A stretch of 64,000 nucleotides of DNA from NCBI RefSeq assembly GCF_004138135.1, contig NZ_RYFD01000017.1:1-64000 (forward strand), in the 5' to 3' direction. Made by a program: the position numbers and the translations under genes. The stretch comes from Candidatus Oscillochloris fontis (GTDB lineage: Bacteria > Chloroflexota > Chloroflexia > Chloroflexales > Chloroflexaceae). Of the stretch, positions 14,476-31,260 are shown one piece after another. The stretch's first letter is position 1. Each line of letters starts with the position of its first letter. Below the pieces are notes generated by a model. It ran no database searches and was not told where the DNA came from. It worked only from the letters and a program-made list of their open reading frames with translations.

Positions 14476-14485
14476 AACCTATCAC

Positions 14486-14812: not shown

Positions 14813-14829
14813 GGGTTCGTACTTCCTAA

Positions 14830-15081
14830 CTAATCTTTGACCTGGGCACGATAGTAGCGATGGGTACGCTCATAACCCAGCATATCACCATTCGAGTCAA
14901 AACGGATCTGATAGGTTGCCAGCACATCGCTACTATTGGGAATGCGCCGCATCTCAACCATCTCCACCTCGATCATCCAACCGTCACCATCGCGTTTACA
15001 CTGCGACACCGTATCAACCGGCAAGCCCGTCATCGCTGCGAGGGTATCACGGGCGATCTTGATAACTTCTACTGCATTCAT
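14830..15081 (-). CDS. gvpO: gas vesicle protein GvpO
   Basis: An 83-residue protein with the GvpO pattern: an N-terminal helix (AVEVIKIARDTLAAMTGLPVD), then VSQCKRDGDGWMIEVEMVEMRRIPNSSDVLATYQIRFDSNGDMLGYERTHRYYRA. GvpO occurs in many haloarchaeal and actinobacterial gvp clusters and is needed for vesicle formation, possibly acting as a regulator or GvpF/G partner. It is placed between gvpG and gvpJ in a tightly packed operon. Confidence 0.9.
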   Translation of the reverse strand: MNAVEVIKIARDTLAAMTGLPVDTVSQCKRDGDGWMIEVEMVEMRRIPNSSDVLATYQIRFDSNGDMLGYERTHRYYRAQVKD

Positions 15082-15112
15082 AGGGACATATTCCTATCAC
15101 TACCGGAAGTAA

Positions 15113-15358
15113 TTAGCTCTGGCGTTGGCGCTCACGGGCGACACGCAAGCGCGCCAGCAGTTCCTCTTCGACCGCAAGATACTGCTCCTCGGTAATCTCA
15201 CCCATATCCAGACGTAACTCAAAGTCGGCGAGCTTCTGGCGGATACGCTGCGGATTATAGAGTTCATCCTCGGCCTGCTCGGTGATCTGTTCAGCCACCC
15301 AGAGCACCCCCTCTAGCGGGGCAGTGATCGGAAAGGTCAAGATACTAAGAAGGCCCAT
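15113..15358 (-). CDS. gvpG: gas vesicle protein GvpG
   Basis: An 81-residue protein opening MGLLSILTFPITAPLEGVLWVAEQI, the conserved hydrophobic start of GvpG, then an acidic amphipathic helix (ADFELRLDMGEITEEQYLAVEEELLARL). GvpG binds GvpF/L in haloarchaea. It starts 4 bases after the GvpF/L stop with its GGAG inside that gene, so translation is coupled to it. Confidence 0.93.
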   Translation of the reverse strand: MGLLSILTFPITAPLEGVLWVAEQITEQAEDELYNPQRIRQKLADFELRLDMGEITEEQYLAVEEELLARLRVARERQRQS

Positions 15359-15362
15359 AGAA

Positions 15363-16130
15363 TTAGCTCCAACTAACCGTCAGATTAACGAAATTATAGG
15401 GTGGCACCGGGCCAACCGACTTAAAGAGCATCCGCGAGCCAAATTGGGCATCAAGGTCGTGGATGGCGGCATCAAAGCGGGCCTCATCCTCGCGATTGAG
15501 CAGAAAGGCCGCATTGACCACCATGCGATCTGTGAGGATAGGCTGCGTAAGTAGCGCGTGGGCCAGAGGGCGCAACGCCGCGAGAATCTGTTCGCTATCC
15601 GCATCACGGCGTTGCGCAATCGCGGCTTCAACCATCTCACCCAAGCGAATCCGCTCGTAGTAGGTACGTTCGGCAGGTTTGCCAACGATACTATCACGCA
15701 GAGCGCGGATCGCCGGTTCTTGATCGGCAATCTCGCGGAAGAACTGCTCATCGGTCCAGAAGACCTTGAGGCCCAACTCGATCCGGCCATCGAGATCATT
15801 GATCTGGGTGGTGAAATCGTCATAGCCACGCACCAGGAGTTGATCGCGGATCGTCTCGACATCGGGGGCCACAATCCCGAAGCTGATCGGCAGCACCGTA
15901 TAGTGCTGCATCACCGCTTCAAGCACCCGCGTATGGGTAAGCATATTGCGGCGCGAACTCTCATACTCCTCACAGGGCGAGTCGCTCACCACCGCCGCCA
16001 AATCGCGGTAGGGGATGGTATAGACTTGTGGGCCATCCTCGTGGATACCACGTGCTGCAATCACCTGCGTCTCGGAGCAGCGAATGATCGCATAGAGATA
16101 TTTTCCAGTAGGCTGATCACTATCAATCAT
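15363..16130 (-). CDS. gvpF: GvpF/GvpL family gas vesicle protein (copy 1)
   Basis: GvpF/L member at the canonical gvpF position before gvpG. Motifs: KYLYAIIRC, RDLAAVVSDSP, HTRVLEAVMQHYTVLPISFG, RIELGLKVFW and the terminal SVGPVPPYNFVNL. GvpF contacts GvpA directly in the known systems. ATG preceded by GGAG. A large double hairpin separates it from the upstream unknown gene, so it may be expressed less than gvpA-gvpN. Confidence 0.92.
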   Translation of the reverse strand: MIDSDQPTGKYLYAIIRCSETQVIAARGIHEDGPQVYTIPYRDLAAVVSDSPCEEYESSRRNMLTHTRVLEAVMQHYTVLPISFGIVAPDVETIRDQLLVRGYDDFTTQINDLDGRIELGLKVFWTDEQFFREIADQEPAIRALRDSIVGKPAERTYYERIRLGEMVEAAIAQRRDADSEQILAALRPLAHALLTQPILTDRMVVNAAFLLNREDEARFDAAIHDLDAQFGSRMLFKSVGPVPPYNFVNLTVSWS

Positions 16131-16150
16131 ACCATTGCTCCATCAAGCTG

Positions 16151-16225
16151 TTTTGTCGTACTGTTGGCAGCTTCTCCGCCAACAGTACGACAAAAAAATA
16201 TCTTGGGGCGGCGAAGCCGCCCCAA
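16151..16225. terminator. double hairpin inside the gas vesicle operon
   Basis: The first stem has perfect 18-bp arms (16151-16168 and 16178-16195, starting TTTTGTCGTACTG). The second has 10-bp arms, TTGGGGCGGC GAA GCCGCCCCAA (16203-16225). They are joined by AAAATATC, the same layout as the composite hairpin elements at 43003 and 58323. It probably attenuates or stabilises the gvp transcript at this point. Confidence 0.75.
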
Positions 16226-16245
16226 ACCCCATCACAAATACCAGA

Positions 16246-16551
16246 CTAATACTCAAAAGTAAATGTAGAGAAGCCAGCAGTTGTGCCGGTTCCGGCATCG
16301 GCGTCCTTTTCCTTGGGCGCAGCAGGGCGTAGCTCACCATTCAATGCAGCCAACTGCTCTTCGACAAGATGAAGACGAGACTGAGCACGATCCAAATTGC
16401 GCTGCCAAGCGGTCACTTCCTGCTGGAGGCGGGCGCGTTCACCCTCTAGGCGGGTGCGCTCACCGGTCGGTGAAGCCTTGGTGTGCCCCGGTGGGCGGTT
16501 GCGCAGAGCCGCCCCCTCAGGGATCGAACGCATTGATGATTTACGAGCCAT
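16246..16551 (-). CDS. small coiled-coil protein of unknown function in the gvp operon
   Basis: Not recognised. 101 residues: a basic, Pro/Ser-rich head (MARKSSMRSIPEGAALRNRP), a central coiled coil of roughly 45 residues (ERTRLEGERARLQQEVTAWQRNLDRAQSRLHLVEEQLAAL) and an Ala/Gly/Thr tail ending FSTFTFEY. It is cotranscribed between gvpN and gvpF, so it is probably a vesicle accessory or surface protein. It could be a lineage-specific Gvp, but no family assignment is made. Confidence 0.75.
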   Translation of the reverse strand: MARKSSMRSIPEGAALRNRPPGHTKASPTGERTRLEGERARLQQEVTAWQRNLDRAQSRLHLVEEQLAALNGELRPAAPKEKDADAGTGTTAGFSTFTFEY

Positions 16552-16584
16552 CTGTATTCCTTTGGCGAAGTAGGCAAATAGAAA

Positions 16585-17523
16585 TCACACACAATGGGTC
16601 GTGATCAGTTCCATCAAGAGACGCCGATGCTGTAGGCGCAGATCCTGATCACGGCTGGCAAAGGTGCGCTTCGATTCGAGAATATCGAGGCAGACCGCGA
16701 CAAAGCGCGGATCTTGGGTCGTCGGGCGCATTCCTTGAAGCGCCATAATACGCGCAATCATCATACCAGCCCGCATCGTCGGCATCTGAGTGAAGGCGCC
16801 CGTCTCCCGGTAGGCATGAATCAGGCTCACAACCCGGAGCGAGTCGTCGGGATCAATACCGGAGGCGGTGGCAACGATCATCGCCTCAGTTTCGAGATCA
16901 TAAAAATCGAGATCTATCGTGATCAGGCGATCATTCAGGGCGTCCTGAGTCTCATGCACCCCAGCATACTCCTGGGGGTTACTCGTGAAGATCGCACGGA
17001 ACTCTGGATGTACCCGAATATAGGATTCATCGCGGCTCGCGGTAGGCAGAACCAGCATACGCTCCTCAAGCACCGTGAGCAACACATTATTCGCCTCTGG
17101 GCGTGAGCGGGTAAACTCATCATAGATCAGGGTATACCCCTCACGACAGGCGGTTGTGAGGCGATTATCTACCCACTGCTGAACCGCATTCTCCTCGTAC
17201 TTCACCACCGAGTGGATGAAGCGATCCACCACCCGTCGGTAGCGATAGCCATGCTGGCCACCGATCAGGTCTGAGGCCGAAAACTCCTCATCACCGACAA
17301 TCAGCATGACCGGGCGGCCGATCTGGGCAGCAACATGGAGCGCCAGGGTTGTCTTGCCAGTCCCAGCCGGGCCACGAAAGTGGATCGGATAACCGGCTTG
17401 CAGGTAGATGACCGCACGCTCTGTCAGATCCTGGGTCGCTTGGGTGGCAACAAAACCGGCACTGGGGCGCAGAGCAATCGTAGCGCGGCTCTGCTCAGTC
17501 ATAGTACGTGCTGGGGCGGTCAT
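16585..17523 (-). CDS. gvpN: gas vesicle ATPase GvpN
   Basis: AAA+ ATPase of the MoxR/NorQ type in every gvp cluster. Walker A GPAGTGKTTL, IVGDEEFSASDLIGG, Walker B TLIYDEFTRS, sensor TSNPQEYAG and the sensor-2/lid region RDQDLRLQHRRLL are present. GvpN is thought to drive shell growth from bicones to cylinders. The ATG has AGGAA just upstream; an in-frame GTG 12 bases earlier overlaps that ribosome site. It follows the GvpC-like gene, reproducing the A-C-N order of cyanobacteria. Confidence 0.95.
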   Translation of the reverse strand: MTAPARTMTEQSRATIALRPSAGFVATQATQDLTERAVIYLQAGYPIHFRGPAGTGKTTLALHVAAQIGRPVMLIVGDEEFSASDLIGGQHGYRYRRVVDRFIHSVVKYEENAVQQWVDNRLTTACREGYTLIYDEFTRSRPEANNVLLTVLEERMLVLPTASRDESYIRVHPEFRAIFTSNPQEYAGVHETQDALNDRLITIDLDFYDLETEAMIVATASGIDPDDSLRVVSLIHAYRETGAFTQMPTMRAGMMIARIMALQGMRPTTQDPRFVAVCLDILESKRTFASRDQDLRLQHRRLLMELITTHCV

Positions 17524-17572
17524 GGGGTTCCTCACTGATCACGACAGGCAAACAACCATTCCAATTCTCGGA

Positions 17573-17611
17573 AGGAGGCAAGGATGATGAACTCCACCAT
17601 CCCTGCCTCCT
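17573..17611. terminator. hairpin between the gvpC-like gene and gvpN
   Basis: Arms AGGAGGCAAGGATG (17573-17586) and CATCCCTGCCTCCT (17598-17611) pair with a single G-T. The 14-bp stem has no run of U on the transcript, so it may stabilise the upstream mRNA or cause partial termination. Confidence 0.6.
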
Positions 17612-17638
17612 GGTAGTTACCCGATGTAGAGATGCGAT

Positions 17639-19585
17639 TTAATCGGACATACCGGCAAGGCTACGCGCCTGAACGATCCAATCTTCAACATTGGCCAGCC
17701 GTCCGGCATCACCAAGCGCCTTACGCAGATCCTCAGGGGTACTCAGCGCAAGTTGGATGTAGGTCGAGATCCCGGCGCGTTCTAAGCGCTGTTGGAGTGC
17801 CGGGCCAATACCGTGGATCGTGGTCAGATTATCACGGTAGGTACGGGTGAGTGGCAGATCAGCGGATTCCTCAGCCGCACGCGGCGACTTGGGGACGGTA
17901 TCGCCATGCAGGGTGAGCACCGCCGCACTCATTGCCTGATAGAGTGGCAGCATCTGACGCCGAACATCCTCGATCATCAGCAAGAAGATCTCGCGCTGCG
18001 CCGGGACGGAAGGCCAGGGCACCGCCTCCAACTCATGCGTCAGCATCTCGACATCATGTTGAAGTTCGCTCACCACCTCACCATAGTGTGTGCGCTCATC
18101 AATAGTGATCTGGTCAAGATGCGCGGTTGCCTTCGCCAAAAAGGGCTGAACCTGGGTCACCAAGGCGGAGACTAAGCCATGCAGTTGCTGCTGCTGGGCA
18201 TCATCATGCATCCCCTGTTCAAGCACCTTCAAGATCGCGGCACGTTTGGCCTGCACATCAGCAACAATATCCTCGTCGAGATCAGGTTGAGCCTCGGCTG
18301 GTGTAGCCTGAACCGTCTCGACGACGATAGGTTCAACCTCAGGGAGCGGCTCAGCTACCTCAGAAACAACCAGAGCGGACGCAGGTAGTGCAACTGAATC
18401 AGGCTCCGCAGGGGCGGATTCGGCTGGGGTTGGATCTGGTGCCAGCGAATTGGATGCAACCGCCGGTGCCGTTGGCTGGGGCGTGGGTGGGTAGGAGAGG
18501 ATCGCGGCCATACCACGAATACGCTCCTGGCGTTGGCGATACAACTCAGCCGCCTGAGCCGCCGCCATTTCAGCGCGCTGGGCTTGCAAGGTTGCCAGGT
18601 AGCCCATCACATCCTGACGCCGAGCGTGCAACTCAGTCACCCGCTGGGACTGGGCGGCGGTGGCACTTGCGTGACGTTCACGACTGATCGTCGTGATCAT
18701 TGAGGAGACATCATCATGCAACGCAGCCATCTCAGCCTCAAGCTGAGTACGCTGAGCCTGCGCCTGAGCGTCCAGATCCGCGCTATTGGTACGGCGCAAC
18801 TGGGCTACATCGGCACGTAACTGGGCCACATCGGCACGCAGGGCAATCATCGTAGCCTGAAGTTCTTCACGTTTAGCTTGCGTCTGGGCGTTTAAGGTCG
18901 CCCGTTCAGTTTGCAGCATCATGCGCACATCGGCACGTAGCGCAGCCATATTGGCATGAAGTTCTGCACGCTTGGACTGAGCCTGGGCAGAAAGATCATC
19001 ACTATTGCTACGGCGCATCGCCGCCACATCGGCACGCAACGCAGCCATACGCGCATCAAGCGCCTCACGCTGCGCACGCGCCATCGCCGCCACATCATCA
19101 CTATTAGCTCGGCGCAAGGTTGTCACCCCATCGCGCAAGGCCATACAATCGGCATACAAAGATTCACGCTGGGCTTGGGCTTGGGTAGCCAACTCAGCGC
19201 TATTGCTCTGGCGGAGGGCCGCCACATCAGCCCGCATCCCCATCACATCGGCACGCAGCGCAGCCATATTGGCATGAAGTTCTTCACGCTTGGACTGAGC
19301 CTGCGCAACCAGTGTCTCGGTATTGGTACGGAGCATTGTCGCCACATCATCACGCAACGCGGTACGGCCAGCCTGAAGCTGATCACGTTGGGCCTGGGCC
19401 TGGGCAGCCAAATCGGCACTGACGTCGGCGAGGGTATCCGCCACCGTCGCCTGCAACTCAGCGGCCTGGCGCTCAAGAAGTTGCCGCTGTTCAGCGACAG
19501 CCTGCTGCCGGGAGGATCGGTAGGCTTCGAGTTGTTGCTCGGCAGCCTTACGCACTTCGGCGGAACGGGAACGAGAAGCTCTCAC
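17639..19585 (-). CDS. GvpC-like protein: seven 33-residue-type repeats plus C-terminal helix-hairpin-helix
   Basis: Probable external scaffold of the gas vesicle. Residues 59-303 form seven tandem repeats beginning LxAQAQxxR; five are exactly 33 residues and two are 40 (33 plus one heptad, at 92-131 and 231-270). A 33-residue period is the hallmark of cyanobacterial GvpC, which wraps and stiffens the shell, and the gene sits between gvpA and gvpN as gvpC does. Beyond the repeats are another coil, a Pro/Ala/Glu-rich linker (about 370-440), a second helical region and, in the last 60 residues, a helix-hairpin-helix-like domain (IHGIGPALQQRLERAGI) not known in GvpC. At 648 residues it is three times GvpC's usual size. 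Start GTG with AGGAG. Confidence 0.75.
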   Translation of the reverse strand: MRASRSRSAEVRKAAEQQLEAYRSSRQQAVAEQRQLLERQAAELQATVADTLADVSADLAAQAQAQRDQLQAGRTALRDDVATMLRTNTETLVAQAQSKREELHANMAALRADVMGMRADVAALRQSNSAELATQAQAQRESLYADCMALRDGVTTLRRANSDDVAAMARAQREALDARMAALRADVAAMRRSNSDDLSAQAQSKRAELHANMAALRADVRMMLQTERATLNAQTQAKREELQATMIALRADVAQLRADVAQLRRTNSADLDAQAQAQRTQLEAEMAALHDDVSSMITTISRERHASATAAQSQRVTELHARRQDVMGYLATLQAQRAEMAAAQAAELYRQRQERIRGMAAILSYPPTPQPTAPAVASNSLAPDPTPAESAPAEPDSVALPASALVVSEVAEPLPEVEPIVVETVQATPAEAQPDLDEDIVADVQAKRAAILKVLEQGMHDDAQQQQLHGLVSALVTQVQPFLAKATAHLDQITIDERTHYGEVVSELQHDVEMLTHELEAVPWPSVPAQREIFLLMIEDVRRQMLPLYQAMSAAVLTLHGDTVPKSPRAAEESADLPLTRTYRDNLTTIHGIGPALQQRLERAGISTYIQLALSTPEDLRKALGDAGRLANVEDWIVQARSLAGMSD

Positions 19586-19660
19586 CGCACGTCTCCTTTG
19601 ACGAGATAGCAGATGATCCAGAGACTACACACGAACATCTTGATGGTCTCAAGTGGCGAT

Positions 19661-19697
19661 GTGCCAATGGAAGTGAGCGCGCAACTTCAATTGGCAC
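19661..19697. terminator. hairpin directly downstream of gvpA
   Basis: Arms GTGCCAATGGAAGT and ACTTCAATTGGCAC pair over 14 positions with one mismatch. Lying between gvpA and the GvpC-like gene, it could give excess monocistronic gvpA mRNA, as needed for the major shell protein. There is no U tract on the minus-strand transcript. Confidence 0.6.
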
Positions 19698-19710
19698 ACC
19701 ACCGAGCGCA

Positions 19711-19926
19711 CTAAGCGGCGGCAGAGGACGATGCGGTTAGACCGACGGCCTCAGCATACTTGAGATACGTATCTACACCGGCGATGACGATGCGGGCCTC
19801 AACCGCGAGCAGCTCGATGCCCACCAAGGACACGCGGACCCAAGCGTCAATAACGATACCTTTGTCTAGGATGCGATCCACGACTTCGGCCAGGCTGCTA
19901 GATGCGTTGACCTTCTCGACTGCCAT
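19711..19926 (-). CDS. gvpA: major gas vesicle structural protein GvpA
   Basis: Forms the ribbed, gas-permeable shell that gives buoyancy. 71 residues with the near-invariant GvpA core: [61 protein letters not shown] lies 6 bases before the ATG, the strongest ribosome site in the cluster, fitting a highly expressed protein; an in-frame upstream start is not needed. It is the only canonical gvpA in the window and heads the operon. A 44-bp array of four 11-bp units lies about 84 bases upstream. Confidence 0.97.
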
Positions 19927-20115: not shown

Positions 20116-20826
20116 TTAGGCCACCTGTTCGGTACGCAGGATATAGCCATGGCGCGGAACGGTACAGATATGAACCGGGTGGCGCGGATCGGGTTCGATC
20201 TTCGCACGCAGATTCATCACATGCCAGCGAACCAAACCTGGCTCGGCTGTCTCAGGGGTATAATTCCAGACTTCACGCAGCAGACGTTCACTTGAGCAGA
20301 CCTCGTTGGGGTGGCGCATGAGGTAGCCAAGCAGATCAAACTCGGCAGGCGTAAGTTGGACCGGAGCGCCAGCGACTTCAGCTTGGCATGTGTGCAGATC
20401 GAGAGTCAGATTGCCTGCCCGTAGCACCGCAGTACGAGAACTGAGGTGGGGATTATTGGGGCTACGGCGCAACAACACCTTAATCCGAGCCTTCAATTCA
20501 CGCAGATCGAATGGCTTGGTCAGATAGTCATCGGCACCCTCTTCAAAGCCACGCAGACGATCTTCAATCGTATTACGTCCGGTAAGAAAGAGGATCGGCA
20601 CATCGGCCAGATTACTGCGGGTATGCAAGGTATGGCACAACGCAAAGCCATCCATTTTAGGCATCGCCACATCAAGAACGATCAGATCGGGGCGTTGGCG
20701 CTGGGCCATGTCCAGTGCCTCATCGCCATCATGGGCCATACGCACCGTATGCCCATCATCATAGAGTGATCGCCCAACCACCCAAAGCAGATCATCCTCA
20801 TCATCAACTAGCAGGATGTATGCCAT
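20116..20826 (-). CDS. OmpR/PhoB-family response regulator
   Basis: DNA-binding response regulator. The receiver domain (1-115) has the acidic pair in LLVDDEDD, the phospho-acceptor Asp in LIVLDVAMPKMDG, and TKPF with the conserved Lys. The C-terminal winged helix (about 135-235) has LTPAEFDLLGYLMRHPNEVCSSERLLREVW and RVHxxNLRAKIEPD-like text typical of the Trans_reg_C domain. The ATG has GGAGG 7 bases upstream and overlaps the preceding receiver gene by 19 bases, so the pair is translationally coupled. It is the likely binder of the 11-bp repeat operators that flank the operon. Confidence 0.93.
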   Translation of the reverse strand: MAYILLVDDEDDLLWVVGRSLYDDGHTVRMAHDGDEALDMAQRQRPDLIVLDVAMPKMDGFALCHTLHTRSNLADVPILFLTGRNTIEDRLRGFEEGADDYLTKPFDLRELKARIKVLLRRSPNNPHLSSRTAVLRAGNLTLDLHTCQAEVAGAPVQLTPAEFDLLGYLMRHPNEVCSSERLLREVWNYTPETAEPGLVRWHVMNLRAKIEPDPRHPVHICTVPRHGYILRTEQVA

Positions 20827-21203
20827 ACCCAAGCCTCCTGCTGTTGAGTCTCATCGGCAAACACGTGCTGGAGCATCGCTTGAACATCGGTACGCAAGAA
20901 GGGTTTGGCTAAAAACCCAACAAGCGGCACGTGGCTACGACACCAGTCCTCTTCATAATAGTAACCCGACATCATTACCATGCGGGTCTGTGGGCTGAGC
21001 GCATGGATCTGCTGGGCAAGATGAATCCCATGACTATCGGGCAAAATCGCATCAATGAAGGCTATGGTAACGTCATACTGCACGACAAAATCGAGTGCGG
21101 CAGCCCCCGAACCCACCGCAGTCACAGTCACACCATCGGCCTTCAACATACGCTCAAGCGCCCAACAGAGATCTGGTTCATCATCAATGATGAGAATATG
21201 CAT
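20808..21203 (-). CDS. stand-alone receiver-domain response regulator
   Basis: A single CheY-like receiver of 131 residues: IIDDEPDLCWALE, phospho-acceptor Asp in TIAFIDAILPDSHG, MMSGYYYEED and Lys in LAKPFLRTD. No output domain, so it probably acts by protein contact or as a phosphate relay or sink between the kinase and the OmpR-type regulator that overlaps its end. It starts 8 bases after the kinase stop. Confidence 0.9.
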   Translation of the reverse strand: MHILIIDDEPDLCWALERMLKADGVTVTAVGSGAAALDFVVQYDVTIAFIDAILPDSHGIHLAQQIHALSPQTRMVMMSGYYYEEDWCRSHVPLVGFLAKPFLRTDVQAMLQHVFADETQQQEAWVWHTSC

Positions 21204-21211
21204 AATCCCTC

Positions 21212-22459
21212 TTAATCGCTCACCGGTAGTCGAATGACAAAGGTAGCACCTTTGTCTGGCTCGCTTACAACCTCAAGTGTGCCCTGATGCTGCTGAATAA
21301 TGCTATAACTGATCGAAAGACCAAGCCCTGTTCCCTTACCAACGGTTCGTGTCGTAAAGAAGGGGTCAAAGATCTTAGCGGCATGTTCTTTGGTAATGCC
21401 ATGGCCAGTATCGCAAAAGCGCAGTTCGACATGATCTCCGCTCAAGCGCGTAGTAACCGTCAGTTGCCCACCTTGGGGCATCGCGTTACAAGCATTCAGG
21501 ATGAGATTGGTAAAGACCTGCTGAAGCAGTTCTGGATTGCCATAGAGACGTGGAACATCCGGTGAAAAGTCACGTCTCAAAGTCACCTGTGAGACCAGCA
21601 TTTGGTGACTCAACAGATTAAACGTATCTTCGAGCGTGGCATGGATATTGAGTGGACGGAATCGTTCTTGGGGTGGATGGGAAAATTTGAGCAATTGTTC
21701 AATAATTAATGAGGCGCGTTGGGCCGACGTGACAATTTTTTGGACACACTGTTGGCGTAGGTCGGGGTCATCAGGATGATCTTCGAGCAACTGGGCACTC
21801 GCGGCGATGATCGCCAACGGATTACGGATCTCGTGGGCGATCCCACCCGCCATCACGCCCAACGAGGCAATCTTCGCCGACTGGGCTAGTTGGGCCTCCA
21901 AGCGACGGCGCTCGATATCATCCTCCATGAGTAAGAGTGCCGCCGTCTGACGCTCAGCGATCAGTGAGACAAACCAGAGGTCGTCGCAGGTAAAATCGTG
22001 CTGGATAGCTGCGGTACGAGCGAGGTAGAGCACCCCATGCACCTGATCACCGATTACCATCGGCACACAGAGCACCGAACGCAACGCATGTTGTTCGATC
22101 TCGGCAACAAGCGACGCAGGTAAGTCGGGATTGTGCGGGAATAGGATCGGACGACACTGCTGGGCAACCCAGCCAGCGACACCCGCCCCGACATGGATTG
22201 TCGGCGACAGTGGGGTTGGTGGAGGAACGCCCAGTTCTGCGGACACAGACAGCATGCTGCGTTCAGGATCATACTGCATGAACGCAGCATAATCAGCCTG
22301 AGTCGCCTCAGTGAGCACCTTTAGAAGATCGAGATCCAAGGTTGCGGGGTTACGGTGGGAGAAGAAAAAATGTTGCCAGCAATGGAAGAGCGACTCCAAG
22401 GTTGGGTGCCATGTGCGCTCGACAAGTGGTGGTGATATGGGTAGATTCTGGCTTGTCAT
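21212..22459 (-). CDS. GAF-domain sensor histidine kinase
   Basis: Soluble sensor kinase, no transmembrane helix. A GAF domain spans about 50-185 (GAGVAGWVAQ, RSVLCVPMVIGDQVHGVLYLA). The HisKA domain has the intact H-box GGIAHEIRNPLAII. The ATPase domain has NLILNACNAMPQGG, FCDTGHGI, FDPFFTTR and GTGLGLSISYSII. The signal is not evident; GAF may bind a small molecule or chromophore. First gene of the kinase, receiver, OmpR operon that runs toward gvpA. ATG chosen with GAGAG upstream. A four-unit 11-bp repeat array lies 80 bases upstream, suggesting autoregulation. Confidence 0.93.
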   Translation of the reverse strand: MTSQNLPISPPLVERTWHPTLESLFHCWQHFFFSHRNPATLDLDLLKVLTEATQADYAAFMQYDPERSMLSVSAELGVPPPTPLSPTIHVGAGVAGWVAQQCRPILFPHNPDLPASLVAEIEQHALRSVLCVPMVIGDQVHGVLYLARTAAIQHDFTCDDLWFVSLIAERQTAALLLMEDDIERRRLEAQLAQSAKIASLGVMAGGIAHEIRNPLAIIAASAQLLEDHPDDPDLRQQCVQKIVTSAQRASLIIEQLLKFSHPPQERFRPLNIHATLEDTFNLLSHQMLVSQVTLRRDFSPDVPRLYGNPELLQQVFTNLILNACNAMPQGGQLTVTTRLSGDHVELRFCDTGHGITKEHAAKIFDPFFTTRTVGKGTGLGLSISYSIIQQHQGTLEVVSEPDKGATFVIRLPVSD

Positions 22460-22538
22460 CGCTGACTCTCTACGATAGGCGGCAGCGAGATTGGCGCGTC
22501 TCGGTGCCACAAATAGTACCGATCAACATAGCATATAA

Positions 22539-22848: not shown

Positions 22849-24990
22849 ATGACCCAACCGACAAACGCCGTCACACCGCGAAGCGCCGTAGGCCCTTCTC
22901 TCGCCAAGCTGGTAAGCCACATCCCCGCCGAACAGCATTGGCGTCGTCAGGCTGATGAGCTGATCGTCATTGGTCGGCAGATGGAATTGATGGCACAAGA
23001 GCAGGGTCGCAGTGCACAGGTCATGCTGGGGACGCTGCGCTTCTCGCTCTTTCGGATGCACCAGGGACGGATCGCGCAGTTAGCTCCGTATTGCCAAAGT
23101 GTGACGGTCTATGGCGAGGCGGATGTGGCACCACCGGACATCCCTGGAGTGACATTCGTTTCGGTACCACCGGGCGCACCAATGAGCCAGGAGTGGTTCT
23201 TGGTCGTAGATAGCCCAGGGTTCTGGGGGGCGCTGATCGCGCATGCGAGCCAGGATCGGGCAGATGGAGGAGCGCGGCGGTATCTGTTCGATGGCGTACT
23301 AACGACTGATGAGCGCGTGGTAAGCCGGGCCAGCCTGCTCTTGAGCCTCGCGAGCGGGAAGGGTGCCACCGTCACCGCCGAGCGTGACGCGATGGCGAAC
23401 CAGGCGCGCTGGGGACACTTGTCCTACAGCCTCGTGACCCACCCGGAGGCGCATCGGCTCGAGCTGCTGGGCTGTCTGATTGACATGCCCGACATCCACG
23501 CGCTGCTCTCGATTCCTTCGTTTGGCCTCGACACGATGGGGCCAGAGGCGATGAAGGTGTTGCGACGCTACTGCGGAACCTTGGGCGAGGTTCTCTACCG
23601 TGCGGAGGGCACCACGCTGGTTCCGGTTGCCTGGGGGAATGCCCAGCGCCCCCCAAACCAGCCGATCAATACGGGTGCCGCTGGTCAAGCATTTACCAAA
23701 GGTAGCCTGATCCTGAATCGGCTCCAGCCAAGTGATCCTGAGCAGGCGCTCTTCAACAATGCCAACTCCATGTCGGCGATTCCGCTCTTTGTGAGTGGTT
23801 CACCGTGGGGGGTATTGTTGGTCGGTCAGCCTGAATATGATCCAGAGAAGTCGCTGACCACCACCGCAACGGTAGGGATTGCGGCCATGCTGGAGCAGGT
23901 GATCGAGGCAAACCCATCAGCCGCGATAGCACCAGCATCAGCGGCGGCACCGGCCTACACGCCGCCTGCGGCACCGGCCTACACGCCACCGGCGGCACCG
24001 GCCTATACGCCACCGGCGGCACCAGCCTACACGCCGCCTGCGGCTCCGGCCTACACACCACCGGCGGCTCCGGCCTACACGCAGCCCAGCCAACCGAGCT
24101 TCCCCAGCCAGCCGGCGAGTGGGGTCTTCCCGACCAGCCCAGCGACACCAGGAAGCCCAGCGGCTCCGCCCATGCCGATTATGCCATCGGCACCCACCTT
24201 GCCGCCCCGTCCATCAATTCTGGCACCGCAGCACAACCAGTCCACAACCTTCGGGCTACCGACATGGATGAAGGCACCTGGCCGCAGTGGGCCGGGGGGC
24301 ACAGGCCCGGCAGCCGCACCACCCGCCGAGGGGCCGAGTGTGCGCAGTTGGCCAGTATTGCGCCAGCGCCTCTTTAGTGCCTTGGTCGCCTACGACCAGC
24401 AGGCAGCCGAACAGGTCTGGAGTGAGGCGGTTGGGATCTACTCACCAGAGCAGATCTGTAATGAGTTGCTCACACCGGTGCAGGTTGAGATCGGGAACGG
24501 CTGGCACCGTGGCGAAGTCAGTGTAGCCTCCGAGCACTTTAGTAGCCGCTTCGTGCAGAGCAAGTTGCTCAGTCTCTTCAACACATCAACCGATCACATC
24601 AATGGGCCAACCGCAATTGTGGCATGTGCCCAGGGAGAGTTGCACGAGATCGGGGCGATCATGATCAGCCTCTTCCTGCGTTGGGGCGGATTCCATGTGA
24701 TCTACCTGGGGCAGAATGTGCCCAACTCGACCATCGAAGAGATGGTCGCCCAACTCAACCCACAGGTCTTGGCGCTCTCGGCAGCCACAGTTGCCGCCGC
24801 CAATGGCCTGATCGCCGCCAGCCAGATCATCGCCCAACTGCCAGCCCCGCGACCGTTCTTCATGTATGGCGGCTTCGCCTTCTGGGATCGTGACGATCTG
24901 CGCAATCGGGTACAGAATGGCTTCTACTTCCAGGGCGATATACGCCAAATCGCCCGCATTGTCGCTGAACAGATGAACCAGAACGCCTGA
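22849..24990 (+). CDS. DICT-GAF-cobalamin-binding sensor protein with CarH-type photoreceptor residues
   Basis: Predicted soluble sensor. The N-terminal 180 residues resemble a DICT sensory domain; a GAF-like domain follows (about 200-355: YRAEGTTLVPVAWG, MSAIPLFVSGSPWGVLLVGQP). Then comes a linker with six PAAPAYTP repeats (about 365-410). The C-terminal 210 residues are a helical cap plus Rossmann B12-binding domain. Key residues match the Thermus CarH light sensor: W552-H553 and E562-H563 (the Wx9EH motif; W131, H132, E141 and H142 in CarH) and the lower axial ligand H599 in GELHEIG (CarH H177). It carries no MerR DNA-binding domain, so output must go through partners. Start ATG with GAGGAG at 6 bases. 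First gene of a seven-gene operon. Confidence 0.8.
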   Translation: MTQPTNAVTPRSAVGPSLAKLVSHIPAEQHWRRQADELIVIGRQMELMAQEQGRSAQVMLGTLRFSLFRMHQGRIAQLAPYCQSVTVYGEADVAPPDIPGVTFVSVPPGAPMSQEWFLVVDSPGFWGALIAHASQDRADGGARRYLFDGVLTTDERVVSRASLLLSLASGKGATVTAERDAMANQARWGHLSYSLVTHPEAHRLELLGCLIDMPDIHALLSIPSFGLDTMGPEAMKVLRRYCGTLGEVLYRAEGTTLVPVAWGNAQRPPNQPINTGAAGQAFTKGSLILNRLQPSDPEQALFNNANSMSAIPLFVSGSPWGVLLVGQPEYDPEKSLTTTATVGIAAMLEQVIEANPSAAIAPASAAAPAYTPPAAPAYTPPAAPAYTPPAAPAYTPPAAPAYTPPAAPAYTQPSQPSFPSQPASGVFPTSPATPGSPAAPPMPIMPSAPTLPPRPSILAPQHNQSTTFGLPTWMKAPGRSGPGGTGPAAAPPAEGPSVRSWPVLRQRLFSALVAYDQQAAEQVWSEAVGIYSPEQICNELLTPVQVEIGNGWHRGEVSVASEHFSSRFVQSKLLSLFNTSTDHINGPTAIVACAQGELHEIGAIMISLFLRWGGFHVIYLGQNVPNSTIEEMVAQLNPQVLALSAATVAAANGLIAASQIIAQLPAPRPFFMYGGFAFWDRDDLRNRVQNGFYFQGDIRQIARIVAEQMNQNA

Positions 24991-25011
24991 TCGCAGCCGA
25001 TGGAGTAACTC

Positions 25012-27099
25012 ATGTCCAGCGCTGAAAACTTCTCCCTGCCTGCGCTGCTGGGATTGGGTCCAAAAGGCTGTCTGCTCGAATTGGATCAGGTGCGTGATCT
25101 TGCCGTGATGCTCATGCGCAGCCGCCCGCCAGATATGCGGGCGGGCTGCTTCATTGGCGGAAGACTATCGGTTGGGAAGCATACACCTACCGACGCCATC
25201 GTACTAGCGGAAGGTTTCGGGAGTGCGCCATTTCTGGTGATTGCAGGTCAGCAGGGTGCCAGTGCCCTGCTGACCTGGGCTGAATCGGGGCACTACCGCA
25301 CCCAGATCATCACCGACCCGGAGTATGTTGATCGTGCGGCGCTGGTGCTGGCACAGCTCAGTGACCACGAATATTCGATGCGTGATCTGGTCGAAGCCGA
25401 GGTACAGCGAGCCTATGTCGCACGCCTCGCCGCGACATTGATCGGAGAACTCCAACTCACTGAAACGGATCGCCATGCGCTCATGCCGAATGAGAGTCGC
25501 TGGCTCCATTTGGCCGTGGCAATGGCTAATCGCAGTGGGGCAGAGGCACTGCTGAGTATCCAAGAGGTGCGCCAACTCTTTCAGGAGATGGGAATCCAAC
25601 GCGCAATACTGGGGCATCTTGACGGAGATCAGCATCAGTTCATACCGTTAGCGAGCGAAGGAGGGCCGATTCCGGCTCCATGCACGGTTCAAACCCCCGG
25701 TATGATCGCCAATGTCATTCATCGGGGGCGCGTAGGAACCGCGACCTCAGCACCCCACAGTGGGTTGCAGGGGATCGCCAGTTGGATGGGCAACAACGTT
25801 CTGACGGCAGTCCCGTTGCTGCGCAATGAGCGCGTAGGGGGATTGTTGCTGGTTGCCAGCCCGCGCCCGATACCGACACCAGGTCAGGCGCTCCTGAGTG
25901 GGATCGCAAGCCTCATCGCGCTCAATATGAGCGAGATAGCCAGCAGCACAGCCAGCCGCAGCAATGAGAACGGGAGTAAGACGGCACGAACACTGGCAAC
26001 GGCAACCGCCAACCGTTCGACAAGCACCCGTGATGGCAGCCATATTGTCCGTGAACTGGGTTCGTTACTTACCCACCTTGATGACGCGATCATGCTGGTG
26101 GATGGGCGTGGTCAAGTGACCGACTATACCCCGGCGATGGCGGAACTGTTAGGGATTGATCACAACACCAAAGGGCAGCCGCTGATCGCTAGTGGCGCCG
26201 CGTGTCTCTCATCGCTCTTAGCCGAAGCGTTGATGGAGGATGCGGTCGAGGCACAGGAGATCGAACTACCGAATGGGAGACAAGCCAGCGCTTCGGTGAT
26301 TGGCTTTTCGCAAGGGTTATGGGCGTTTGTGTTACGCCCACAGAGCAAAGCGGAGCGACCAGAGCCTGTGGTGGTGGCAGCACCAGCAGCAGCTATCGTT
26401 CCAGAGAGTGAGCGTAACGAGAGCTTTTTGGCAAACTTCTCAAATATTATTCGGGTACCGTTGCGCGAGTTACGCGAATTGATCACGCGAGTACCCGCAG
26501 CCGGTGAACTAAACGAACAACAATCGCGGCTGATTGGCCAAGTGGTACGCCTGAACAGTGAACTGACCATGTTGGTCAACGATCTGCTCTCACTTGGGCA
26601 AATTCGGCTCCAGACCGGCGATAACCGGGTGATGTTGCGGCTCGATTTACTGATTGAGGCTGCGGTAGGCACCCAATATGCCGAGTTTGGACGGCGCGGC
26701 CAAGAGGTTGAGACCGATATTCAAGCCAAGCTCCCCAGAGTGTATGGTTCGGAGGAGGGTCTGGGCCGGGCCATCTCAGCACTGATTGACAATGCGATCA
26801 AATATAGCCCATCAGGTGCTCATATTCGTGTTTCAGCGAAGCAAGAGGGCAAGATGGTTATCGTTCAAATTAAAGACAGCGGCCCCGGTTTGCGGCCCGA
26901 CGAGCTGGCCCAAATCTTTGATCCATTTTACCGGGCTGCAACCACCGAGCATATGGGAGTTTCAGGCCGTGGCCTCGGACTCACGATCGCCAAGGCGGTT
27001 ATTGAGCAACACGATGGAAGCATCTGGGCCGAGGGTGAACCCGAACAGGGCTGTACCTTCACCTTCCAGTTACCAACTATCGAGAGCAGCACGGGCTGA
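25012..27099 (+). CDS. histidine-kinase-like protein with Asn in place of the phospho-acceptor His
   Basis: Multi-domain sensor, 695 residues. N-terminal sensory region (about 1-180, possibly DICT-related), GAF (about 190-305, AVPLLRNERVGGLLLVASP), PAS (about 345-420, LDDAIMLVDGRGQVTDYTPAMAELLG), a HisKA-like dimer helix and a full ATPase domain (ISALIDNAIKYSP, IKDSGPGL, DPFYRA, GRGLGLTIAKA). The H-box reads FLANFSNIIRVPL where kinases read FxxxxSHELRTPL, so Asn replaces the His. It probably cannot autophosphorylate on that residue and may act as an ATP-binding scaffold or modulate another kinase. 21 bases after the cobalamin sensor; GGAG ribosome site. Confidence 0.88.
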   Translation: MSSAENFSLPALLGLGPKGCLLELDQVRDLAVMLMRSRPPDMRAGCFIGGRLSVGKHTPTDAIVLAEGFGSAPFLVIAGQQGASALLTWAESGHYRTQIITDPEYVDRAALVLAQLSDHEYSMRDLVEAEVQRAYVARLAATLIGELQLTETDRHALMPNESRWLHLAVAMANRSGAEALLSIQEVRQLFQEMGIQRAILGHLDGDQHQFIPLASEGGPIPAPCTVQTPGMIANVIHRGRVGTATSAPHSGLQGIASWMGNNVLTAVPLLRNERVGGLLLVASPRPIPTPGQALLSGIASLIALNMSEIASSTASRSNENGSKTARTLATATANRSTSTRDGSHIVRELGSLLTHLDDAIMLVDGRGQVTDYTPAMAELLGIDHNTKGQPLIASGAACLSSLLAEALMEDAVEAQEIELPNGRQASASVIGFSQGLWAFVLRPQSKAERPEPVVVAAPAAAIVPESERNESFLANFSNIIRVPLRELRELITRVPAAGELNEQQSRLIGQVVRLNSELTMLVNDLLSLGQIRLQTGDNRVMLRLDLLIEAAVGTQYAEFGRRGQEVETDIQAKLPRVYGSEEGLGRAISALIDNAIKYSPSGAHIRVSAKQEGKMVIVQIKDSGPGLRPDELAQIFDPFYRAATTEHMGVSGRGLGLTIAKAVIEQHDGSIWAEGEPEQGCTFTFQLPTIESSTG

Positions 27100-27119
27100 G
27101 CGCCGTAAGGTTGAGCGTT

Positions 27120-28010
27120 ATGCGCTACAGCATTCTGATGTTTGAAACCGATACTGCCCATAGCAGCGCCTGGTCTGAGGCGCTGCTGCGTATTGCCAGC
27201 CAACAGGGAGTCACGATCACGGTGACCGTGGCGCGGACGGTACCTGTGGCCCAGTTCCATGCTGGGCGACGCCAGTTCCATTTACTGGTTGCCCCGCTCT
27301 CAGATGAATCACTCAACTTGGTGACACGGTTGCGCACGCGGAGTACGCATCTGCGGGCGCTCTTCTTCCACCCAGCCGAGACCCCGGAGCAATTGCTTCA
27401 GGATGTCCGGTGGCGCGGCTACACCCTGGCGGTCGTCCCAGAGAGTTCTGATGCGTTCGTGTTCGCAGTCAGCAAGGCACTCGGCTTGCACTTGATTGAT
27501 GACCCTGAGCACCAGGGCCGACCCGCCGCCACGATAAGCGATGTCCAGGTCTTGTTGGATGTCTTGCGCTGGCAGACCAAAGCCCAGTTGGTGCTGTATA
27601 CCGACTATATCGGCAACCTGATCACCCAACGCGGCGACCCGTCGAAGTTGGAGTTAGATGCGGTATCGTCGTTGATCGCAGGCAGTTTTGGAAATTCATT
27701 TGAACTCGGACGGGCGCTGCATGATCCGAATACACGCCATCTGAGTGTGCTTGAGGGTGAGCATTTTGATCTCTATGCCACCAATGCCGGAAATTATCGC
27801 CTACTGGCACTCATCTTTGACAAAGAGTTTGTCAGCCCAAAACTTGGCTATGTTTGGTTACAATTGAAGCGCAGTGCTGATCAGCTTAGTCATATGCGCA
27901 TCGTTGAAGGTAATGTCGGTGACGTGATCGCGGCTGAATTGACGGAGTCACTCAACAATGAGTTTGATCGCATATTCGGTAGTGATCTCATTGACACTCG
28001 TAAGTCCTAA
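27120..28010 (+). CDS. roadblock/LC7-like protein with receiver-like N-terminus
   Basis: 296 residues. The N-terminal 120 resemble a degenerate receiver-type alpha/beta fold (YSILMFETD start, HLLVAPLSDE, LRALFFHPAETPEQLL, TLAVVPESSDAFV) but lack the usual acidic triad. The C-terminal half (about 155-270) looks like a roadblock/LC7 domain: LVLYTDYIGNLITQRGDPSKLELDAVSSLIAGSFGNSFELGRALH, then FDLYATNAGNYRLLALIFD. Roadblock proteins (MglB type) bind and regulate MglA GTPases, and one is encoded two genes downstream. Start ATG chosen; an in-frame TTG is 9 bases earlier. Confidence 0.75.
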   Translation: MRYSILMFETDTAHSSAWSEALLRIASQQGVTITVTVARTVPVAQFHAGRRQFHLLVAPLSDESLNLVTRLRTRSTHLRALFFHPAETPEQLLQDVRWRGYTLAVVPESSDAFVFAVSKALGLHLIDDPEHQGRPAATISDVQVLLDVLRWQTKAQLVLYTDYIGNLITQRGDPSKLELDAVSSLIAGSFGNSFELGRALHDPNTRHLSVLEGEHFDLYATNAGNYRLLALIFDKEFVSPKLGYVWLQLKRSADQLSHMRIVEGNVGDVIAAELTESLNNEFDRIFGSDLIDTRKS

Positions 28011-28034
28011 CGAGAGTCTCTCTAGGAGGACGTA

Positions 28035-28514
28035 ATGGCACGTTCGCAGCTTGTTCTCTCCGCCGCACAACTCCAGGAGCTACGTCAGCTCTTGGCGCAA
28101 TTTGGACAGCAGGCTGATGTGCGCTTCGCCTTCCTGGGCGATCTGAGCGGTCTGGATATTGTGAGTTGGGATGCCGAGAATGAGACCGATGTGGGGAGTG
28201 TCGCAGCACTCGCCGCCGGTGATATGATGGCAACCCTAGAGGTAGGACGTTTGCTGGGAGGCAAGCGGGCCTGCAACCTGATCGTACAGGAGCATGAAGA
28301 CCAGACTATTCTGATCTCGCGGGTTGGTGAGGCCCTCATTCTACTTGTCTCGACCTCGCGGGATGTACCGCTAGGCTGGTCGCGCTTAGCGATTAAACGG
28401 GCCAATGATCGCATCCTCGCAATCGTGGGGAGTGCGGCAATGGTACCACCTCCCGACGCGATCTCCGAAGATTTCGAGCGCTCGTTTGCCGCGCAGCTCG
28501 ACAACATCTGGTAA
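28035..28514 (+). CDS. roadblock/LC7 domain protein (MglB-like)
   Basis: 159 residues with a single roadblock/LC7 domain: ADVRFAFLGDLSGLDIVSWDAENETDVGSVAALAAGDMMATLEVGRLLG, LIVQEHEDQTILISRVGEALILLVSTS. In Myxococcus MglB, a protein of this fold, is the activating partner of MglA in polarity control. The gene immediately precedes an MglA-type GTPase with 15 bases between, the usual arrangement for a cognate pair. Strong AGGAGG ribosome site. Confidence 0.9.
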   Translation: MARSQLVLSAAQLQELRQLLAQFGQQADVRFAFLGDLSGLDIVSWDAENETDVGSVAALAAGDMMATLEVGRLLGGKRACNLIVQEHEDQTILISRVGEALILLVSTSRDVPLGWSRLAIKRANDRILAIVGSAAMVPPPDAISEDFERSFAAQLDNIW

Positions 28515-28529
28515 AACTGCGAGGCTGCC

Positions 28530-29114
28530 ATGTTTATCAACTGGGCTATTGGCGAACTCAATCTCAAGATCGTCTACTACGGTGCCGCGTTGAGTGGCAA
28601 GACGACCAATCTTCAGTATATTCACGCACGAACCCCAGCCAATTTGCGGGGGCGGCTGATCTCACTCAAGACTCAACAGGAGCGCACGCTGCTCTTCGAT
28701 TTTCTTCAACTTGAGATGGGGAAGGTGAATAACCTCAAACCCAAATTTAAGCTCTACACCGTACCGGGTCAGGTCTATTATGCAGCCAGTCGTCGGCTGA
28801 TTCTGCAAGGGACTGATGGGATCGTCTTTGTGGTTGACTCGCAGGCCGGGCGCTTGGCCGAAAACCAGGAGTCTTGGTTCACCATGGAGCAGCACCTGAT
28901 TGAACTGGGGTACGATATTAACACCTTCCCGATCATTGTGCAGCTCAACAAGCGCGACATGCCGCATGTGATGTCGGCAGCGGAGTTGCGACGCCAACTT
29001 GACGTGCTGAATCGGCCTTGTTTTGAGGCATCGGCACTGCGGGGGAGTGGGGTATTCGATACGCTCAAAGCAGCCATGAACGCGGTGGTAGCCCAGGTAC
29101 GACGCACGATCTAG
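28530..29114 (+). CDS. MglA-type Ras-like small GTPase
   Basis: 194 residues. P-loop GAALSGKT (18-25), switch II TVPGQVYY (78-84; Ras family DxxGQ is altered to PGQ as in MglA proteins), VVDSQ, the guanine-specificity motif NKRD (140-143) and EASAL. MglA switches between GTP- and GDP-bound states to set cell polarity, gliding or pilus placement. With the roadblock partners upstream it forms the probable output of the sensor operon. Chloroflexales filaments glide, so motility control is a reasonable inference, not shown by the sequence. Confidence 0.93.
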   Translation: MFINWAIGELNLKIVYYGAALSGKTTNLQYIHARTPANLRGRLISLKTQQERTLLFDFLQLEMGKVNNLKPKFKLYTVPGQVYYAASRRLILQGTDGIVFVVDSQAGRLAENQESWFTMEQHLIELGYDINTFPIIVQLNKRDMPHVMSAAELRRQLDVLNRPCFEASALRGSGVFDTLKAAMNAVVAQVRRTI

Positions 29115-29184
29115 ATCCGATGGGTTATCTATACGATAGTCTTGGGGCCACATGCCCCTAGAGAGATACCGGGAGAGGTGCCCT

Positions 29185-30441
29185 ATGCAACAGGCGACCC
29201 CGATCATCGAGAGCCTTCAAGCCTCTAGTTACGACCAGAATGTGCGGATTGGTGAGTTGACCTTCTTTACAACTGAGAAGGTTGACCCAGTAAGCTACGC
29301 CGCCCTACTGCGTGGTCTGACGGTTGTCTACGATAGCTTCGAGTATGCGATTGCCCAATCGGGCGATCCGGTGGTACAAGCGCTGTGGGCAGCCGATCTG
29401 CGCAAGCAGGCGATGATCCGCCATGACATGTCGTTTGTGGCCATGCATGCGCGTGAGATTCCGGCACTTGAGTTGAGTGCGGAGGTACTGGCCGAGCATA
29501 TTCGGATGCGTTCGCTCCAGATGCCGCGCTCGCTGCTCGGAACCGCCTATGCGCTGGCCACATGGTACATGGGTGGCGACGCCTTTGCGACAAAGGTGGG
29601 TTGGTCGGTGCAACTACGCGAAGGCGCTGGGCTGAGTTTTTTCAACAGTTTTAATGCGTGGGGGCAGACCCGTTGGCCACAGTTCGCCGCTCAGATGGAT
29701 GCGCTCCAGTTTACGCCTGAGGTACGTCAGCAGGTGCTTGAAGCGGCCTACGAGACGCTCGATGGCATTGAGCAGATGATCGGCCAGATCTACCCGATCA
29801 ATGACAACCCGATCAGTGAGTTGGTCATGCTGATCAATCCGTTGGGCGGGAATCACCCAATCACCAACGATATGGAAGAGATCAAGGCGGTCTTCCGCTC
29901 GCATCGGCGGATTGATAAGCTCTTCCCATTTATGGAGTTGCGTTACGGACTCAAGGGGCGGCGTTTCTCGTGGAGTGATGGCTGCTGGATTGCGTCGTTG
30001 CTTGATGAGGGGCAGGAGAGTATCAACCAACAGGTACGCTGGCTGACGCGGCTGATGGCACGGCGTGGGATGCCACAGTGGTTCATGGAATGCCACTTGA
30101 TCCTTATGACCGAAGATCTGACCCAGGCCCGGCCATACAATCAGGAGCGCTACCTGAAACTCTCCGAGACAGCGCGGGTCTTAGCCGAAGAGCGGCGGGC
30201 GAGTATTAACGATGCCAATCTGGTTGCGCTCGATAATGCCTTCTATGCCCGTGTGGGCCAGGAGTGGCGCACCGTCATGCCCAACTGTGGTGGGCTGATC
30301 GCTTCAGCCGTCGCCGATGACCGGAACGGTGTCCCACATGCGCTTGAGGCATTTATGAGTTGGATGACTGACTCCACACGTTTCCCTGAGGTCTGGATCA
30401 ATGCCGCCCACGAGACGATTGAGATGGCGCGACGGCTGTAG
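29185..30441 (+). CDS. heme-oxygenase-like helical protein (tentative)
   Basis: 418 residues, all-helical by eye. The N-terminal half resembles the heme oxygenase/TENA fold: TTEKVDPVSYAALLRGLTVVYDSFEYAI, then LLGTAYALATWYMGGDAF and REGAGLSFFNSFNAWG, recalling the LGxLYVLEGSxLGG and GxGxxFF segments of bacterial heme oxygenases. The proximal His normally near the N-terminus is not in the expected place, so heme cleavage is uncertain. The C-terminal 200 residues are unfamiliar. If active it would supply biliverdin, the chromophore of phytochromes; if not, it may be a helper of the GTPase module. The ATG has GAGAGG upstream and follows MglA by 70 bases. Confidence 0.45.
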   Translation: MQQATPIIESLQASSYDQNVRIGELTFFTTEKVDPVSYAALLRGLTVVYDSFEYAIAQSGDPVVQALWAADLRKQAMIRHDMSFVAMHAREIPALELSAEVLAEHIRMRSLQMPRSLLGTAYALATWYMGGDAFATKVGWSVQLREGAGLSFFNSFNAWGQTRWPQFAAQMDALQFTPEVRQQVLEAAYETLDGIEQMIGQIYPINDNPISELVMLINPLGGNHPITNDMEEIKAVFRSHRRIDKLFPFMELRYGLKGRRFSWSDGCWIASLLDEGQESINQQVRWLTRLMARRGMPQWFMECHLILMTEDLTQARPYNQERYLKLSETARVLAEERRASINDANLVALDNAFYARVGQEWRTVMPNCGGLIASAVADDRNGVPHALEAFMSWMTDSTRFPEVWINAAHETIEMARRL

Positions 30442-30480
30442 AAGCGAGAGCACGTATTAGGGAGCAGGGGCAGGGCACTC

Positions 30481-30551
30481 AATCTGGATCTGCGCAGATC
30501 ATCGTGTCACCTGCACACCCTACTACGTAGACACATAACGAGATCCAGATT
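30481..30551. promoter_or_regulatory. structured leader before the DUF4388 gene
   Basis: AATCTGGATCT (30481-30491) and AGATCCAGATT (30541-30551) are exact complements enclosing two further self-complementary stretches: GATCTGCGCAGATC (30487-30500) and GTGTC...GACAC with CTACGTAG inside. It may be an mRNA leader structure or an operator, ending 33 bases before the start codon. Confidence 0.45.
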
Positions 30552-30584
30552 GCCAGACCCATGTAGCAGTAGAAGGGGAGCAGG

Positions 30585-31232
30585 ATGTTTCTCCAAGGCA
30601 GCTTTGCACTTATCAGCCCAGCCGCGCTGATCCAGACGCTTTGTCAGGAGCAGCGGACGGTGACCATTACGGCGAGCCGTGGCAATGGTACCGCCCGGAT
30701 CTGGATCATTGAAGGTCTGGTGGTGGGTGCCCGCTGTAACGAGCATACCGACGAGGAGGCGATCTTCCGGGTGGCCCAATGGGCCGACGGCATGTTCACC
30801 GTCTCTGGGGGCGCCGAGGAGGCACCAATGACGATGGAGGCCGAAGCCGAGACTCTCTTGCTCGAAGCAGCACGCCGCCGCGACGAGGGGGAGTTGGCAC
30901 CGCCGCCGCATGCTCCCGCTGATCTGCGGCTCGACCAGATTCTCGCCGATTGTCCAGCACTCTCCGGGGGGGCGCTGGTACGTTCGGATGGGGCTTCGAT
31001 TATGTCGGGGATGCCGGTCTCGGCACCGTTAGTTGCGACAAGCCTCGCGGTGATTGGGGTCGCGTTGGGGAATACGTCGGGGATGGCAGCCTATATCGGG
31101 CCGGGTCAACGGTTGTTGCTCACCCGGAGTGCAGCGGGCCACATCCTGTTGGCGGCGGTGCGCCCCGGCGAGGGGCTGGGCGAGGCGGGTGCGCAGCTTG
31201 AGCGGATTATTGGGACAGCGTTGCCGGTATAG
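30585..31232 (+). CDS. DUF4388 (PATAN-type) protein with C-terminal roadblock-like domain
   Basis: 215 residues. The N-terminal 95 match DUF4388: FLQGSFALISPAALIQTLCQEQRTVTIT, GTARIWIIEGLVVGARC, GEEAIFRVAQW-like and ADGMFTVSGG. The C-terminal part (about 115-215: GALVRSDGASIMSGMP, AYIGPGQRLLLTRSAAGHILLAAVRPG) resembles a roadblock/LC7 domain. DUF4388 is known from MglA-linked and two-component systems in gliding and cyanobacterial species (PATAN). It is the last gene of the sensor module, 143 bases after the previous one, so possibly with its own promoter. Strong AAGGGGAG ribosome site. Confidence 0.8.
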   Translation: MFLQGSFALISPAALIQTLCQEQRTVTITASRGNGTARIWIIEGLVVGARCNEHTDEEAIFRVAQWADGMFTVSGGAEEAPMTMEAEAETLLLEAARRRDEGELAPPPHAPADLRLDQILADCPALSGGALVRSDGASIMSGMPVSAPLVATSLAVIGVALGNTSGMAAYIGPGQRLLLTRSAAGHILLAAVRPGEGLGEAGAQLERIIGTALPV

Positions 31233-31260
31233 GGGCGCAGTGCGCCCTTCCTCTTTGCTC

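Follow-up and report, generated by a model that had tools for sequence, protein, structure and literature searches.

CarH and other AdoCbl-dependent photoreceptors carry a light-response signature of four parts, GxxW, EH, GxxH and GxxxP (PMC11796333). In photocobilins, a CarH-type domain is combined in a single chain with a bilin-type globin whose chromophore is biliverdin (PMC10979010), and bilin biosynthesis-associated globins (BBAGs), which have the phycobiliprotein fold, are encoded in the vicinity of B12 proteins and of a gene from the heme-oxygenase family (PMC10151467). Among GTPase systems, the closest are the MglA/MglB polarity switch, with GTPases named Group 1 after a published survey (PMC4316618), and the actinobacterial conservons (CvnA-D), operons of a kinase-like protein, a roadblock protein and a small GTPase that have no functional response regulator. 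The locus described here shares features with each of these systems. No description of the complete gene set was found in the literature searched, in line with an earlier note on this DNA, which had not recognised it as a described system. We interpret the set as a module by which light would control gas vesicles through a GTPase, an explanation that, taken as a whole, we give an even chance of being right.

Gene content of the locus

The window (the whole stretch of 64,000 nucleotides that was analysed) belongs to a Chloroflexales genome of 4.46 Mb in 139 contigs. As the earlier note had claimed, it contains seven co-oriented and closely spaced genes (22831/22849-31232), with intergenic gaps of 21, 11, 24, 15, 37 and 143 bp. 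Domains of the seven proteins, here called p1 to p7, were assigned with Pfam and NCBIfam. The features of the module and of its gas vesicle neighbourhood are as follows.

12753..19896, minus strand: gas vesicle cluster with three gvpA-type genes, three gvpF/L genes, a gvpN-like AAA ATPase and a coiled-coil/HhH protein
20116..21203, minus strand: two response regulators (ORFs 20116-20832 and 20808-21203), of which one has its receiver followed by an output domain
21212..22510, minus strand: GAF histidine kinase with intact HisKA (HisKA and HATPase_c), divergent from the module
22849..24990, plus strand: p1, DICT-GAF-B12 protein, predicted CarH-type AdoCbl photosensor without DNA-binding domain; alternative GTG start at 22831
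25012..27099, plus strand: p2, GAF-PAS-HATPase pseudo-histidine kinase (HATPase_c, 1e-28)
27120..28010, plus strand: p3, receiver-like domain without phospho-Asp plus MglB-type roadblock; alternative TTG start at 27111
28035..28514, plus strand: p4, MglB-type roadblock (Robl_LC7), probable GAP or partner of p5
28530..29114, plus strand: p5, Group 1 MglA-type small GTPase
29185..30441, plus strand: p6, heme-oxygenase fold without proximal His, with a helical C-terminus of ~200 aa that is possibly globin-like; reading frame open from 29152
30585..31232, plus strand: p7, DUF4388 (PATAN-like; PF14332, 2.6e-16 over 4-101) with a conserved C-terminal extension
31231..31249, plus strand: terminator-like hairpin at the p7 stop codon, the end of the gene set (consensus scan, in which such hairpins show no excess over shuffles)

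The last gene had been read as encoding a DUF4388-roadblock protein; DUF4388 is the only domain that Pfam detects in p7, and the C-terminal roadblock was not confirmed. In most relatives the DUF4388 part stands alone, the C-terminal extension being aligned in 8. Downstream of the set lie a hydroxylamine-reductase-like gene (31339-33009) and, on the plus strand at 33371-34558, a gene for a protein of 395 aa without Pfam match at E 0.01.

Predicted light input, relay and GTPase switch

p1 carries the Pfam domains DICT, B12-binding_2 and B12-binding. The best NCBIfam match of its B12 part is CarH (5e-32), and this part also matches TtCarH (5c8a) best (8e-22), with the WHRGE..VA.EH and GE.HEIGA stretches aligned. 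p1 thus shares with TtCarH the stretches Wx9EH and GExHEIG and has the signature residues of AdoCbl-dependent photoreceptors, the four-part signature being found as GNGWHRGEVSVASEH, GELHEIG and GQNVP. Wx9EH occurs in every p1 orthologue that reaches the B12 part, and the strict ExHxxG in most of them, three having no match to that regular expression. Unlike CarH, p1 has no MerR-type DNA-binding domain at its N-terminus, which Pfam identifies as DICT-GAF, and its gene lies within a GTPase operon. CarH-type domains fused to DICT and GAF have been noted by sequence mining, in a study that did not test their function (PMC11796333). This CarH-type domain with its signature motifs bears out the light input postulated in the earlier note: light sensing by p1 appears likely, and from its sequence p1 is predicted to bind AdoCbl and to react to light. 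In some genera, a further DICT-HATPase protein ends or precedes the module (L055:9517-11100, L056:15815-17398, L054:12810-14408 and L053:1574-3382); it resembles the front of p1 joined to the back of p2, and in L055 DICT is fused directly to the kinase ATPase domain.

Most relatives encode, between p1 and p2 or in some layouts directly before p3, an additional protein of ~360 aa, for which the Pfam phycobilisome match is weak at best. It consists of three homologous repeats of ~115 aa (hhalign 92-98%), and its model is confident (pLDDT 93.6). The best VIA match of the first repeat is the photocobilin globin domain 8j2w (Z 16.7, 2.2 A, 115 residues); phycobiliproteins and smURFP follow so closely that they fall inside the tie range. 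Like photocobilins, the clusters of these relatives therefore combine a CarH-type B12 domain with a bilin-type globin of photocobilin fold; whereas photocobilins are one chain, here there are two neighbouring proteins, the globin is a triple repeat and the partner is a GTPase module. Judging from sequence and fold, p1 and the triple globin of relatives would correspond to a photocobilin divided between two genes. Within the order, 18 module genomes have the triple-globin gene, and no module-less genome does; outside the order, a draw of 400 genomes from the phylum gave distant, shorter matches alone. The window genome, in contrast to the photocobilin arrangement, has no globin gene, and one close relative retains a fragment.

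The heme-oxygenase-like nature of p6, also claimed previously, is upheld by its Pfam match (PF01126, 1.9e-10), by its similarity to HO-1 (3e-9) and by its model, which has the heme oxygenase fold (Z 20 against HO-1), with the correction that the proximal heme ligand, His25 of HO-1, aligns to Asn in 6/6 p6 sequences. p6 is the sole PF01126 protein found in the window genome, and as the heme-ligand His is missing, its role as a bilin-making enzyme is doubtful. Its C-terminus resembles a globin weakly at most: the match to the globin repeat is weak (hhalign 34%, E 4e-4), and VIA matches cover the N-terminal part alone. Of the clusters, those of the window's genus and that of a single genome from a neighbouring genus include p6, and no others do. 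The module thereby differs from BBAG loci, since its globin is a triple repeat and p6 lacks the heme ligand and is missing from most clusters.

p2 had been described as a kinase-like protein, which is correct as far as its HATPase domain and intact ATP-binding N, G1 and G2 boxes are concerned, but the phospho-acceptor His of its H-box is Asn in the window and Arg, Gly, Trp or Asp in relatives (His in 0/19 aligned sequences). Similarly, the two predicted roadblock proteins, p3 and p4, are indeed of MglB type, while p3 (MglB match 9.5e-16 over 141-297) needs the correction that it adds a receiver part (7w9h, 8e-7 over 1-120) without phospho-Asp: its acceptor column holds Asp in 0/14 sequences when two normal regulators of the window, both with Asp, are taken as reference. 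With the acceptor His of p2 and Asp of p3 missing across orthologues, a standard two-component relay was rejected and His-Asp transfer is unlikely within the module. We infer that contact signalling is the simplest idea for the relay.

The MglA-type GTPase/roadblock switch that the earlier note had recognised is well supported. p5 matches M. xanthus MglA (6hjh) at 1.3e-72 and aligns with it in the P-loop, the Arg finger and TVPGQ (GAALSGKTT, R52-T53 and TVPGQ in an alignment of 10 orthologues), and p4, which matches T. thermophilus MglB (1j3w) at 2e-8 over its full length, adjoins p5 in every cluster examined. We regard an MglA-type switch as likely. It shares the catalytic features and the adjacent roadblock partner with the described Group 1 polarity switch, yet p5 forms a clade apart from the order's general MglA (~46% identical), and p4/p5 are connected with a B12 photosensor and with gas vesicles. 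That second MglA-type GTPase, present in most genomes of the order (L061:9163-9741, on contig C138 of genome G000), has a roadblock-like gene upstream of its own gene and a DUF4388 gene immediately after it. The combination of kinase-like protein, roadblock and small GTPase in one operon is shared with conservons, as is the lack of a functional response regulator, but the module has an extra photosensor, a kinase without phospho-acceptor His and a GTPase of Group 1, not Group 2, and DUF742, a conservon gene, was not detected among its seven proteins. The closest GTPases outside the class (~52-62%, from Anaerolineae and Calditrichota) are encoded beside kinases, regulators, DUF4388 and roadblock genes; their neighbourhoods gave no match to the p1 B12 part, the globin or gvp, and the idea that the same cluster exists in other classes was rejected accordingly.

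Distribution and linkage to gas vesicle genes

Module presence was scored by p5 orthologues at least 65% identical among 82 Chloroflexales genomes. It was found in 23 of them, belonging to about 12 genera, and strong p1 matches reaching the DICT-GAF part occur in the same 23 genomes. The conservation of gene order that the earlier note had asked about is seen in many genera, far beyond chance.

gvpA was detected in 27 of the 82 genomes, which comprise all 23 module carriers, three genomes of g5 and one of g15. The module is thus accompanied by gvpA in 23/23 cases and is present in 0/55 genomes without gvpA, gliding phototrophs included, while the four gvpA-bearing genomes without module show that gas vesicles do not need it. 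The association has a Fisher p of 1e-16 by genome and of 2e-7 by genus, both values ignoring relatedness. On a PufL/M tree, module and gvpA change 7-9 times and yield 5 independent concordant and 0 discordant pairs, a number of independent pairs that is small (sign test p 0.0625). Genus g12 has both module and gvpA in three genomes and neither in two. Phototrophy was rejected as the driver of this distribution: reaction-centre genes lie above the cut-off in 63 genomes of the order, most phototrophs of which have no module, and therefore do not explain the pattern. Those without gvp likewise have no module and mostly keep the other MglA paralogue.

In the window, GvpA is encoded at 13512, 14657 and 19780. 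Module and gvpA are 0.7-4.4 kb apart in 11 genomes, which represent several genera and at least 3 arrangements; in 12 genomes, which are drafts, the two are on separate contigs. With gvpA in all 23 carriers and within 5 kb of the module in 11 of them, the link to the adjacent gas vesicle genes is stronger than the earlier note had supposed. Homologues of the histidine kinase at 21212..22510 stand beside gvpA in genomes with and without the module, and homologues of the regulator at 20116-20832 beside gvpA in other genomes.

Two peculiarities of individual carriers were observed. Both Candidatus Viridilinea genomes have two diverged module copies on different contigs (L047 and L059; L019 and L060). 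The single carrier outside the family, a Roseiflexaceae MAG (G061), has a gvp cluster and the module on one contig (C847; L203, L204), which also carries ParA, ParB and integrase-like genes, the ParB being most similar to accessory ParBs from the family of the window genome; this module may belong to a mobile element (plasmid or integrative) or may reflect a binning error or contamination.

Possible outputs of the module

Since the set is, within its order, confined to gas-vesicle genomes, it probably lets light control buoyancy. Gas vesicles as the output are plausible, and co-distribution and linkage incline us slightly towards them. For the molecular tie of buoyancy to light in phototrophs, the module represents a concrete candidate, as it joins a predicted green-light B12 sensor to a GTPase of polarity type and is restricted to gas-vesicle bearers of the order. 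In the mechanism that we propose, green light would break the Co-C bond in p1 and so alter the assembly of p1 with p2 (and the globin); this change would be passed by protein contact to the roadblocks p3/p4, which would shift p5 between its GTP and GDP states, and GTP-bound p5, together with the DUF4388 protein p7, would change gas vesicle formation or placement. Tentatively, then, a photoreceptor complex split over several proteins, using B12 and in relatives also bilin, might directly set the nucleotide state of a Ras-like GTPase, through which the number of gas vesicles or their placement at septa would be controlled. If true, a bacterial organelle would be governed by a small GTPase that is gated by light, CarH-type domains would gain a non-transcriptional output, and the natural Ras-like switch, being light-gated, would interest optogenetics.

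Pfam detected no DNA-binding domain in any of the seven proteins, so that a cell-biological output appears more likely than direct transcription; none of them is fused to a gas-vesicle protein domain. The gas vesicles of mesophilic Chloroflexales are situated close to the septa, have no contact with the membrane and are accompanied by unexplained filament sheets (PMC7332563), an arrangement that fits a polarity-type GTPase acting on them. As the module-less g5 has gvpA, the module would modulate gas vesicles and not be required for them, and the idea of septal placement as a strict requirement is weakened by the same observation.

Two other outputs were considered, each of which we think unlikely. 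The first is that the module controls gvp expression, the light state of p1-p5 acting on the neighbouring pair of histidine kinase and response regulator, which would bind the gvp promoter. Kinase and regulator genes do lie between the module and gvpA in several genomes, and the neighbouring kinase has a normal HisKA; against this, the lack of a detected DNA-binding domain counts here too, and the pair flanks gvpA also in a module-less genome and hence works without the module. Its presence at gvpA with and without the module suggests that gvp transcription is probably the task of that pair itself.

The second, which follows the earlier note, is that the MglA switch puts gliding direction or polarity under the control of light; the gas vesicle neighbourhood would then be incidental or a second output. 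Type IV pili are the usual output of MglA, and MglA/MglB set polarity in other bacteria. Chloroflexales are reported to glide (PMC7332563), PATAN genes are found near some MglA genes (PMC4316618), and some genomes carry the module on one contig and gvp on another, all of which would agree with such a role. Yet module presence tracks gvpA and not phototrophy, gvp-less relatives in this gliding order have no module and mostly another MglA paralogue, and most type IV pilus genes are reported missing in the Chloroflexales genomes examined (PMC7332563). The gliding or polarity role is consequently not supported.

Finally, the co-distribution could stem from lifestyle, planktonic mesophiles keeping both gene sets, sometimes moved together, with the module's output elsewhere (photoprotection, aggregation or pili, for example). 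This might be argued from the gas vesicle genes of every carrier, the ParAB and integrase-like genes on the contig of the carrier outside the family and the few independent changes of module and gvpA. Shared habitat alone, however, does not explain why 11 genomes from several genera keep the two less than 5 kb apart even where the layout is rearranged, and we hold the lifestyle explanation to be very improbable.

Light-to-GTPase control of gas vesicles thus remains the reading that we prefer. Within the gas vesicle cluster of the window, the gene at 17639-19585 (minus strand) encodes a coiled-coil protein with a C-terminal helix-hairpin-helix, the last ~60 residues of which are kept in some other gvp clusters.
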